Assembly (NCBI GenBank): GCA_027366525.1
Contig: DAHXKG010000005.1
Coordinates: 66,575-130,574, forward strand
DNA from: a candidate division FCPU426 bacterium
GTDB lineage: Bacteria > Oederibacteriota > Muellerivitia > Muellerivitales > DAHXKG01
Length of the DNA: 64,000 nucleotides
Direction: 5' to 3'
Position 1 is the first letter of the stretch, and every line of letters starts with the position of its first letter. The notes under the pieces were generated by a model, which saw nothing but the letters and a program-made list of their open reading frames with translations, did no database searches and was not told the origin of the DNA. Below, one piece after another: positions 54,693-59,193 of the stretch. The translations under genes were made by a program, and so were the position numbers.

Positions 54693-56474
54693 TCAGATTC
54701 TGGAATGACTGGTTCGAAATTTTCCAGGTGATGTTTTGAAATTTTTTTTAAATAGTTGAATAAAATAAGAATAGGAGTGATAACCACATTGGACTCCAAT
54801 TTGCCGAATGGGCAAGCTGCTGGTTTGTAACAACCGTTTAGATTCGTTTAAACGTTGATTTTGAATATATCCTTCAAAGGTAAAGCCGGTGAGCTTCTTA
54901 AAACCGAGGCTAAACGATGATGACGATAAACCAATACTTTTGGCTACTTCTTTTAATCGGAGTGGTTTTGAAAAATTTTCATCTATCATTTTTTTTATGT
55001 CATCTATAATTAACGTTTTTTTCAGAATAGAAGGTTTCAATAATAAACTGGTAAGTTGATCAAAAGTTTCATTGAAAGTATGAACCATGTTATTAGCGGT
55101 TAATGAATTTTCTAATTTTTTTCTAAATTGATCTAACCAGTGCGTTAAGTCAATGGAATGCATTTCAAAATTATTTTTGACGGCTTGAACAATAAATAAA
55201 AGACTGTAATTTAAATGTAAATATAACTCTTCCGGTTGATTGTTGGACAATCGAAGTACGGTATCTAAAAAACGGTCCTTGAGGATTTGAAGATCATATA
55301 ATGTTCCCGATGCCAAAGAGGATTGGATCAAGACTAAAAACTCCTGAAATTCCTGCACGGTGTTTTTGTAGATAACGGTTGGAGCCGGCGAATAAAATAT
55401 TATTTTTTTCCCCGAATTCCTTCCATAATGAAGTGCCTGAATTGACTGATGATAGGAATTGTTTAGTGATTCTCCAGGGGCAACAGTTTCTCCAACACCA
55501 ACGACAACGGGACAACCTAGTTCCTTGGAAGCAAAATCATGAATTTTTTCGGCCAGTGTTCCAATTTGACTTCTTTTTTGTAACCGAGTGCAATGGGCGG
55601 GCGTGGAGGTCACAAATACTCCGCCATAATTATTGAGCGCGCCTCCCACAGTTTCAGGTAATGTTTGTGCAAATTGGAAACATTCTTTTTGAAATGAGTG
55701 AATTAAGAGCATTTTTTCGATGGGATTTGACTTTTTTTCAAGCTGATTTGGAACAACCGTTATAACCGTGGTCGGAATTCGAGTAATTCGAAGTTCTTCT
55801 TGAATCCAGGACAGATTTTCAATGCCACGTTCCCAAATAGGCGTCGATTCATCCGCGGTGATTCCAAGGGCCCAATTAAGCCAGTATAAGTGGGGTGTTT
55901 TTTTTGAAATGACTTGAATCAATAAATCATGGAGTCGTTGTTTGATGATATGTGGATGAGTATTATCACCAAGTACAAGTGCGAATAACTCTAGTGACTC
56001 TTTATAGGCGTCAAAAAGTGGCTCGGTTAAAATGGGTGTTGAGAGAATTGTCTGACAGAAAAACCTGAAGTTGTCGTGATGATCATCTACTTGATGGTAC
56101 CCTGTGAAATTCGTCCATGCATTTTGGAGGTCTGAAAAGGAAAAATTTTTTTTTGAAAAAGTTCCACTTTGTAAATATCCTTGTAATTCGTTGTTATAAA
56201 AAATGGGGACAAATAAATCATGAAATCCTAAAAAAGATCCACAAATCGTTTTTCTCTGATTTTTTGATTTTTGAAAACATTCTTTTACGAATTCTCGACG
56301 TTGGTGTATTTTGCCGTGTTGAAAAGTTAATTTAAATATCGGATTTGAATGTCGAATGCGATTGAGCGCCCACCAACCGGGATGGATGGATTTAGTCATT
56401 ACAAAGCAACTGAGATTGATATAAAAATTGATGATTGAATGAAACGGCTGAAAAGTCATGAAGGTTTCAAACAT
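54693..56474 (-). CDS. AraC-family regulator with PocR-like sensor and degenerate GGDEF-like region
   Basis: A protein of about 593 residues. The N-terminus (about 15-130) resembles a PocR-type ligand domain, with FHDLFVPIFYNNELQGYLQ. The middle (about 220-370) contains VVGVGETVAPGESLNNSYHQ then SIQALHYGRNSGKKI, the pattern of the non-catalytic GGDEF-like domain of CdaR/YesN regulators. The C-terminal AraC double helix-turn-helix starts near residue 490 (LRLKEVAKSIGLSSSSFSLG) and ends with CGYHSYSYFIQLFKKNF. The start is uncertain (ATG 56474, or TTG 56516). No two-component receiver is present. Ligand unknown. Confidence 0.82.
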   Translation of the reverse strand: MFETFMTFQPFHSIINFYINLSCFVMTKSIHPGWWALNRIRHSNPIFKLTFQHGKIHQRREFVKECFQKSKNQRKTICGSFLGFHDLFVPIFYNNELQGYLQSGTFSKKNFSFSDLQNAWTNFTGYHQVDDHHDNFRFFCQTILSTPILTEPLFDAYKESLELFALVLGDNTHPHIIKQRLHDLLIQVISKKTPHLYWLNWALGITADESTPIWERGIENLSWIQEELRITRIPTTVITVVPNQLEKKSNPIEKMLLIHSFQKECFQFAQTLPETVGGALNNYGGVFVTSTPAHCTRLQKRSQIGTLAEKIHDFASKELGCPVVVGVGETVAPGESLNNSYHQSIQALHYGRNSGKKIIFYSPAPTVIYKNTVQEFQEFLVLIQSSLASGTLYDLQILKDRFLDTVLRLSNNQPEELYLHLNYSLLFIVQAVKNNFEMHSIDLTHWLDQFRKKLENSLTANNMVHTFNETFDQLTSLLLKPSILKKTLIIDDIKKMIDENFSKPLRLKEVAKSIGLSSSSFSLGFKKLTGFTFEGYIQNQRLNESKRLLQTSSLPIRQIGVQCGYHSYSYFIQLFKKNFKTSPGKFRTSHSRI

Positions 56475-56516
56475 TGAATTTGAGTTGAGGCGCTGCTTTT
56501 TTTGTGATCTTGTCAA

Positions 56517-57220: not shown

Positions 57221-59131
57221 CTAAATTGCAGATACTCCGCTTTCGCCTGTTCGTACGCGAATAGTTTCTTCAGCATCAAATACAAATATCTTTCCATCAC
57301 CAACGTTCCCGGTATTTAAAACATCCTGCATGACGTTCATGACATGAGGTACATCCCAATCATTTACGACGAGATCAACTCGAATTTTGGGAAGAAATTT
57401 AATTTTTTCTGGTACATCATCAGAAACCTTCGAGCCCCGTTGACGACCAAATCCCTTAACTTCGGTAACAGTCATGCCTTGAATGAGTTTTTCTTGGTTG
57501 AGTGAAGCGACTAACTCATCCAAACTGTCTGGACGTATAATGGCCGAAATCATTTTCATTCCATAATTTCGTTTGACAGTTGTAATCAGCACATAAAGAA
57601 AGCTTATTAATGCCCATCCACCTGCAATAAACAAACAGATTTTTAATTCTAATTTATTATCAGCAGTTCCAATGGCATTTAAGTAAATAATTCCTCCAGC
57701 CATTAACAAATTCAAAACAAGTCCGCCGAATGGAATGATAACATGTTTTACTACACTGAAATCATCTCGATTTTTAAATGCGATAAAAGTCCAGATACAA
57801 ACTAAACCGTATAAAATAAATGTACCTAGATTTGATGCCAGTGTAATACCTGTTAAACCATCGACCGATTGAATTCCAATCGCTGCAATTATGCAAGAAA
57901 TCACAACTAAGATCCAAATAGTTGTGTGAGGTGTCTTCTTTTCTTCATGGAGAAAACTTAAGAACGAAGGCAATTCACGGTCAGTTGCCAATCCATTGGT
58001 TACCCGTACAGCAGTATTTAAACAACTCAAGGTAGTCCCGATAACAGCGATGGCTACGGTGAGAGCTATCGTTATCATTAATCCAAATCCCAGCCCTCCG
58101 AGTAATGAATTTCCTAAAAGTTTAGCCATATCACCAATAGGAGCACTCGAAATAGCCATGGCATTCATTCCAGTAACCACTTGAGTTGAAGCGGGAGTTT
58201 TGGATGTTGCGGCGACGGTTACCATCTCGGTAAGATGATTATTAACCATGAAATTAGCTGCAAAATATTCAAATAAATATGCAACGAGCCCCTGAACAAT
58301 AAGCGCAATGATAATGGCTTTAGGTATGTTTTTTCCTGGATCTTTAGTTTCAGCCGCTAAAGACGTGCAACTTTCAAATCCAACTAATATTAATATAGCT
58401 ATAGTGGATTGAACAAGCACACCTTGAATTGAATGAAACTTAACGATATCAAAAGCGCCTGAGAAGGCCCAAGATTTTATATGCGATGGATTGAAAACAC
58501 GATATAAAATGGCGAGTAAACTAAAAACAGCAAGTGAGATCCATTGAATGATATTTATCCAGATATTAGTTAAAGTGGAACCGGTCACTCCTCGATAAGC
58601 AATATAGCCCACAATAAAGGCAAAGAGGGTTCCAATGATTGTTAAAGTGGTAGTAGAAAGAGTCGCACCAGTAAAAGACGTCCAAATGTAACCGATCATA
58701 GTTGCCATCATGGCAACCATAACGCCTGGATAGACCCAATAGAATAGATGGGCGGCCCAGCCTGTAGCTAATTTTGCAAACCGTGCAATCGATTCAGGGG
58801 CAGCTCGTTTTTTGGATTGCGAATCCAGAAAGGCCTTTTCCGCAAAATAACTACAACTCGCAAATCCAGCCTCAGGATAAATACGAGCTAATTCTGAATA
58901 CGAAAGAGCGGTTAAAAAAGCTAAAATCAACGCAACGAGAATGCCACCCCACATGTCGTTTGCGCATGAAGTGCCATTAGGCAAGGTTGCTGAAGCCTGT
59001 ATTTGATAGGTAATCCATAAAAAAGCGCCTGGGGCAATGAGCGCCATGGCGTTCATGGAGGCTCCTAATAAGCCTAAAGTGGGTGTTATTTTTTTTTCGG
59101 ATGGTGGTTCTTTAGAAGGTAATTTACTCAT
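57221..59131 (-). CDS. APC-superfamily amino acid permease fused to a PII signalling domain
   Basis: A 636-residue protein. Residues about 25-515 form an APC-type permease of 12 or more membrane segments (LGLLGASMNAMALIAPGAFL; ILVGFESCTSLAAETKDPG in the middle). Residues 525-636 (57224-57559) are a complete PII domain: MKMISAIIRPDSLDEL, then GMTVTEVKGFGRQRG, then TGNVGDGKIFVFDAEETIRV and RTGE. The T-loop (SKVSDDVPEKIK) lacks the uridylylated Tyr51 and the YRGAEY segment, so it is not a normal GlnD substrate. ATG 59131 is chosen for its AAGGAG Shine-Dalgarno. A sigma-54-type promoter lies 45 bases upstream. The substrate is unknown; PII normally binds ATP, ADP and 2-oxoglutarate. Confidence 0.92.
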   Translation of the reverse strand: MSKLPSKEPPSEKKITPTLGLLGASMNAMALIAPGAFLWITYQIQASATLPNGTSCANDMWGGILVALILAFLTALSYSELARIYPEAGFASCSYFAEKAFLDSQSKKRAAPESIARFAKLATGWAAHLFYWVYPGVMVAMMATMIGYIWTSFTGATLSTTTLTIIGTLFAFIVGYIAYRGVTGSTLTNIWINIIQWISLAVFSLLAILYRVFNPSHIKSWAFSGAFDIVKFHSIQGVLVQSTIAILILVGFESCTSLAAETKDPGKNIPKAIIIALIVQGLVAYLFEYFAANFMVNNHLTEMVTVAATSKTPASTQVVTGMNAMAISSAPIGDMAKLLGNSLLGGLGFGLMITIALTVAIAVIGTTLSCLNTAVRVTNGLATDRELPSFLSFLHEEKKTPHTTIWILVVISCIIAAIGIQSVDGLTGITLASNLGTFILYGLVCIWTFIAFKNRDDFSVVKHVIIPFGGLVLNLLMAGGIIYLNAIGTADNKLELKICLFIAGGWALISFLYVLITTVKRNYGMKMISAIIRPDSLDELVASLNQEKLIQGMTVTEVKGFGRQRGSKVSDDVPEKIKFLPKIRVDLVVNDWDVPHVMNVMQDVLNTGNVGDGKIFVFDAEETIRVRTGESGVSAI

Positions 59132-59175
59132 AACAGACTCCTTAAAGTTAAATTGAAGCAATTTCTACTTGATTT

Positions 59176-59193
59176 AAGCAAGGGTCATGCCAA
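59176..59193 (-). promoter_or_regulatory. Sigma-54 (-24/-12) promoter of the permease-PII gene
   Basis: On the minus strand the sequence TTGGCATGACCCTTGCTT matches TTGGCACG-N4-TTGCWN. The invariant GG (59191-59190) and GC (59179-59178) are exactly 10 bases apart. Transcription would start about 12 bases beyond, near 59166, giving a leader of about 35 bases with the AAGGAG ribosome-binding site. No enhancer-binding protein gene occurs in this window. Confidence 0.75.

Follow-up and report, generated by a model that had tools for sequence, protein, structure and literature searches.

An APC-fold amino-acid permease and a complete PII domain in one polypeptide: a conserved fusion that may set its own transport by nitrogen and energy status

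PII proteins are normally free trimers that sense ATP/ADP and 2-oxoglutarate and plug the ammonium channel AmtB. What would such a domain do as the C-terminus of an amino-acid permease, the arrangement that the initial annotation proposed for one gene in the 64,000-nucleotide stretch of DNA analysed here (the window)? The open reading frame proved to be real and lies on the minus strand; the assembly of the window genome is 2.02 Mb long and 97.5% complete. The gene and its parts are as follows.

57221..59131, minus strand: permease-PII fusion gene, 636 amino acids and stop codon, ATG at 59131
59138..59143, minus strand: ribosome-binding site AAGGAG, 6 nt ahead of the fusion ATG
57560..59131, minus strand: APC-superfamily amino-acid permease part, residues 1-524 (PF00324; Foldseek matches to APC structures)
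57566..57664, minus strand: TM12 and its helical extension, residues 490-522 (AlphaFold2 model; PII strand 1 from residue 525)
57224..57559, minus strand: PII (GlnB/GlnK-like) domain, residues 525-636 (PF00543; matches to PII structures in the PDB)
57386..57448, minus strand: altered T-loop GRQRGSKVSDDVPEKIKFLPK, residues 562-582 (alignment to E. coli GlnB; Arg47 and Tyr51 equivalents missing)

Both domains of the window protein scored above the curated Pfam cut-offs. The P-II family (PF00543) matched residues 525-630 over its full profile (positions 1-102) with 78.6 bits against a cut-off of 25 (E = 5.1e-22), and phmmer matched solved PII structures across residues 525-636 with E-values down to 2.4e-24. 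The claim that the last 112 residues form an entire PII domain, with the TGNVGDGKIFV and RTGE motifs, was borne out by this full-length match; a profile search of residues 525-636 had been named as the test that could overturn it, and the match found there was strong. AA_permease (PF00324) matched residues 64-473 with 52.4 bits against a cut-off of 24.6 (E = 4.8e-14). The label AA_permease_2 given previously needs amendment, since the window copy matched PF00324 instead, although 7 of 12 orthologues also matched PF13520. In a profile search for the substrate class, the permease part reached none of the NCBIfam equivalog or subfamily cut-offs. The closest solved folds in Foldseek were GkApcT (5oqt/6f34), BasC (6f2g), LAT1, AdiC and ApcT (3gia), with TM-scores to the target of 0.69-0.79 at ~15% identity. 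By its AA_permease profile match and its modelled LeuT-type fold, the permease part is predicted to be an APC transporter, and its residues are as conserved as expected of a working one. We confirmed that the window protein combines an APC-fold amino-acid permease and a complete PII domain in one polypeptide.

The fusion is not confined to the window. Thirteen fused copies were found across 11 genomes, most of them from Omnitrophota and the others from two other phylum-level groups. Orthologous fusions at 60-74% identity were present in 8 of the 45 genomes of the phylum (the window genome, G000 among our handles, counted), in fen_1322, which is a Candidatus Omnitrophota with a close orthologue, and in G269 and G562. 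The last two lie outside the window phylum, and the genomes of G269's phylum do not include G562. G005 and G007 carry two copies each, the G007 pair being in tandem. Pfam matched both P-II and AA_permease in all 12 members of our first alignment and likewise in the thirteenth copy. A frameshift separating the domains had been raised beforehand as a possible refutation; the independent assemblies of 11 genomes hold both in one frame. A search of plasmids by tblastn gave no match, so a plasmid origin of the fusion is not supported. In G005, the strand opposite the minus-strand fusion gene has an open frame of 701 codons (L051:11136-13241); this frame is a shadow of coding bias and would lead astray a gene caller relying on the longest frame.

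In a permease tree built without G562, the fusions formed one clade with support of 100/99, and all unfused relatives fell outside it. When the tree was rooted with more distant unfused permeases, a group of eight unfused permeases (f36; 61-64% identity) was the sister of the fusions. In the PII tree, the fused domains again formed one clade (support 100/100), separate from all 32 free PIIs compared. Because the fusions are a single clade in both trees, one fusion event is the simplest reading, and several independent events are not supported. Nor is derivation of the fused domain from a neighbouring free PII, as the fused PIIs cluster away from the neighbouring ones. Among close pairs, the four with the least saturation gave a dN/dS of 0.04-0.08 in the PII part versus 0.09-0.24 in the permease, values from more diverged pairs being less informative. 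Purifying selection acts on the PII part.

The two domains are joined very tightly. In the AlphaFold2 model of the fusion (mean pLDDT 82.8 with a 33-sequence alignment; 69.9 in an earlier model from 12 sequences), the last helix spans residues 490-522 and the first PII strand residues 525-532, which leaves essentially no linker between TM12 and PII. All 12 fusions compared have the same number of residues from the TM12 motif to the PII motif. Within the PII core, model confidence was lowest at the tip of the T-loop, with pLDDT <50 at residues 565-569. The PII fold is a double beta-alpha-beta in which strand 2 runs parallel to strand 1 and leads into the T-loop, so that T-loop and N-terminus come to lie at opposite ends. 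With the N-terminus of PII fixed to TM12, this topology would be expected to turn the T-loops away from the membrane, in contrast to those of GlnK on AmtB. Since PII begins two residues after TM12, AmtB-type plugging of the permease by its own T-loop is unlikely.

We then compared 12 fused domains with 31 free PIIs, using the residue numbering of E. coli GlnB. Ten residues (T29, G37, G41, K58, G87, D88, G89, K90, R101 and E106) were invariant in all 12 fused domains and R103 was retained in 11. The window copy holds all nucleotide-binding residues (T29, G87-K90, R101 and R103), and from these residues the nucleotide site of the fused PII appears intact. Position 39, whose Gln is a ligand of Mg and 2-oxoglutarate in PII complexes, was Gln in the window copy and four others, and Thr in 7 of the 12 fusions; among the free PIIs it was Gln in 30 of 31. 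The window copy keeps both 2-oxoglutarate/Mg ligands, Gln39 and Lys58. Because Gln39 is replaced by Thr in seven copies, what is conserved would be ATP/ADP sensing, and sensing of 2-oxoglutarate cannot be taken for granted; unless it is bound otherwise, 2-oxoglutarate cannot be the common signal. Sensing of 2-oxoglutarate is thus plausible for the window protein and not for the whole fusion family.

The T-loop differs from that of canonical PII, as had been noticed at the outset: the YRGAEY region with Tyr51 is missing and SKVSDDVPEKIK stands in its place. Tyr51, the site of GlnD uridylylation, was missing in 12 of 12 fusions, as was Arg47, whose column held D, P, L, E or A. Within one subclade the T-loops are well defined (GSKxDDxPxKVKFLxK), yet they differ between subclades. 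No GlnD uridylyltransferase domain was found in the window genome, which has three further free PII genes and thus four PII domains in all. PII signalling in this genome probably runs without uridylylation. The suggestion that the fusion escapes GlnD modification agrees with these results, but the loss of the tyrosine is less telling than it seemed, as Tyr at column 51 was also missing in 14 of the 31 free PIIs. As unusual T-loops are common among free PIIs in this set of genomes and the search for GlnD was negative, we rejected Tyr51 loss as a special feature of the fusion. The third free PII gene of the window genome (L054:6327-6668, on G000:C2) has neighbours that by eye resemble CheY, CheC and CheA, which suggests a tie to motility or signalling.

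Upstream of the fusion gene there is a candidate promoter.

59177..59192, minus strand: sigma-54 (-24/-12) promoter TGGCATGACCCTTGCT, 45 bp upstream of the ATG

The element TGGCATGACCCTTGCT was the only exact sigma-54 match in the window, where 0.07 would be expected by chance. It was also the only exact match in the genome, and a reversed-pattern control gave one as well; because the genome count is no higher than that of the control, the weight of the element lies in its position and conservation. Of the 11 fusions with readable upstream regions, 7 are preceded by elements that score 14-16 of 16, namely those of G000, G031, G012, G003, both G007 copies and one G005 copy (G005a), and these fusions all fall within one subclade of the permease tree. 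No sigma-54 site was found directly upstream of the fusions of G016, G269, fen_1322 and G562, which sit inside PII/Amt gene clusters, or upstream of the five unfused permeases tested (0/5). The window genome encodes rpoN (RpoN DNA-binding domain, E = 9e-61), and this gene together with a -24/-12 element at a plausible distance would place the fusion in a sigma-54 regulon. Searches with simple patterns revealed no NtrC enhancer-like sites within 250 bp upstream of any fusion. Rfam matched one tRNA alone in the window and no riboswitch, and riboswitch control of the fusion was rejected on this basis. Elsewhere, c-di-AMP riboswitches occur near permease-PII loci, ahead of other genes (L049:7570-7728, L049:9837-10026 and L044:1761-1939).

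The genomic context of the fusions is nitrogen assimilation. Genes for free PII, Amt or glutamine synthetase adjoin the fusions in fen_1322, G269, G016, G007, G004, G005, G003 and G562, and in G031 the neighbour from this set is a free PII. Glutamine synthetase is found near the fusion in fen_1322, G016, G007 and G004. In G007 (contig C258, L049:12703-16994), the tandem fusions are followed by glutamine synthetase, and each copy has its own sigma-54 site. In G031, G016, G269 and fen_1322, the gene immediately downstream of the fusion encodes a free PII, and in G562 one lies within ~1.1 kb; no PII gene neighbours the fusion in the window genome or G012. In fen_1322 and G012, a gene for a BBP2-type porin comes ahead of the fusion. 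The window copy has no PII, Amt or glnA neighbours; it sits by itself, flanked on one side by an AraC-type regulator gene and on the other by a divergently oriented gene for an SbmA/BacA-like ABC transporter. The regulator (607 aa, window positions 54693-56516) is encoded by the next gene downstream, on the same strand.

The unfused relatives have a different set of neighbours. Our comparison covered 23 unfused loci, consisting of the eight f36 loci, G267, G493, L026 (Armatimonadetes) and twelve sampled loci of one further group. A PP2C phosphatase gene was found near all 23, usually followed by a Ser/Thr kinase gene. Neither gene was ever found beside the fused copies (for PP2C, 0 of 11 genomes). 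Free glnB was nearby in 4 of the 8 f36 loci, and Amt, porin, glnA or GOGAT genes were near many of the other unfused loci. Because contigs are short at some unfused loci, a missing kinase or glnB there is uninformative. These patterns suggest that the ancestral permease was controlled by a phosphorylation module, in f36 probably also by free PII, and that the fused PII took over from the PP2C/Ser-Thr-kinase module as regulator. The unfused loci, which come from several phyla (L041-L043, L057, L063-L067, L082-L093, L026 and L045), are in their own right an apparently undescribed cluster for phosphorylation-linked nitrogen uptake.

We consider it fairly probable that the fusion is a nitrogen-regulated APC importer set by its own PII sensor via TM12, the sensor having replaced the PP2C/kinase module; a single polypeptide may control its own uptake. 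Transcription would depend on sigma-54, so that the protein would probably be made under nitrogen limitation. Judged from its site residues, the cytosolic PII domain would bind ATP or ADP; in the window protein, 2-oxoglutarate together with Mg-ATP is a further probable ligand. A ligand-driven change in PII could pass through the short junction of fixed length into TM12, and transport activity would thereby be matched to nitrogen and energy status. The cargo is presumably an amino acid, with a nitrogen-scavenging importer as the most likely function. The ADP or low-2-oxoglutarate state would most likely inhibit uptake; by analogy with PII acting on Amt, NrtABCD, UrtABCDE and SbtA, a low-energy or nitrogen-replete state should inhibit transport. 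One fusion protein would then perform on itself the control that PII/GlnK exerts in trans on Amt, Nrt, Urt and SbtA. The gating in cis by energy and 2-oxoglutarate status that the initial annotation put forward survives in part: the intact nucleotide site and the nitrogen-regulated context favour it, whereas Thr at position 39 in seven of the copies weakens its 2-oxoglutarate component.

Signalling could also run from the permease to PII. The protein would then be a transceptor, a role proposed for Amt-kinase fusions, in which permease occupancy or turnover alters PII, and the cytosolic T-loops signal to or sequester nitrogen proteins such as free PII, glutamine synthetase or NtrC-type regulators. 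The anchoring of PII two residues past TM12, with T-loops that should face off the membrane, is compatible with such a role, as are the well-defined T-loop sequence of one subclade and the free PII and glutamine synthetase genes that adjoin several copies. However, no partner is known, the T-loops vary between subclades and the conservation of the permease fits a working transporter, and we regard this reading as unlikely. A third reading, in which PII is mainly an assembly device that forms permease trimers, or mixed trimers with a free PII that carries the signal, draws on the trimeric nature of PII proteins and on the free PII genes directly downstream of or close to five copies. It appears decidedly improbable, because a mere scaffold would not need a fully conserved nucleotide site, the window genome and G012 have no neighbouring PII, and the fused PIIs form a clade distant from the neighbouring ones. 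Although the genomes are draft assemblies and related clusters have glnK immediately beside the permease, a relic or artefact, whether chance read-through or an assembly chimera of permease and glnK genes, is virtually excluded by 13 orthologous copies in 11 genomes that share the junction length, form one clade and have a low PII dN/dS.

Returning to the proposed importer gated by its own PII, a bolder extension is conceivable, though rather improbable as a whole. The fusions would be a new class of transporter with PII in cis, rigid coupling, T-loops off the membrane and, in part of the family, ATP/ADP-only sensing. The class would have been born once, when an operon's kinase/phosphatase (and free GlnB) were swapped for the fused domain, and would serve both as a gated transporter and as a membrane-anchored nitrogen signal.

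A conserved PII-transporter fusion with a fixed junction would allow nucleotide sensing and transport to be measured together in one polypeptide. A phosphatase, a kinase and in some cases a free PII are encoded near the sister permeases, which suggests a nitrogen uptake system of several phyla, so far unstudied, under the control of PII and phosphorylation. Our search, which covered the open literature, found no description of a PII-permease fusion, and a search on Omnitrophota likewise gave none; priority is therefore not certain.

According to two publications (PMC10710835, PMC6603209), control of transporters by PII in trans is established: in cyanobacteria, PII-family trimers tune NrtABCD and UrtABCDE, and SbtB tunes SbtA. 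PII ranks with the most widespread of signalling proteins. In the accessible text of the 2023 review of transporter regulation (PMC10710835) the transporter targets named are all controlled in trans, with no PII-transporter fusion listed. The same text describes transporters with fused CBS, UspA, cNMP-binding and PAS domains. Such fusions and KimA with c-di-AMP (PDB 8b70) resemble the present one in having a nucleotide-binding regulatory domain at the cytosolic C-terminus, but their domains are others, whereas here the fused domain is PII. ApcT, GkApcT, BasC and AdiC share the fold and the Pfam AA_permease family with the permease part; these closest known structures, at ~15% identity, have no PII domain. 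NrtABCD/UrtABCDE and SbtB-SbtA are likewise cases of PII-family tuning of primary or secondary transporters to nitrogen or energy state, but there separate proteins act in trans on other transporter folds, and the fusion would act in cis. GlnK-AmtB is alike in that a PII fold with conserved sites acts on a membrane protein for nitrogen uptake, and amt/glnK adjoin related clusters. In GlnK-AmtB, however, a separate PII acts on Amt by T-loop plugging, with a pore-inserting Arg47 and a modifiable Tyr51; in the fusion, PII is covalently attached to an APC-fold permease, none of the 12 aligned copies has either residue, and the point of attachment makes such plugging unlikely. PII control of transporters was known; what would be new here is that the control is exerted in cis and that its target has a different fold.
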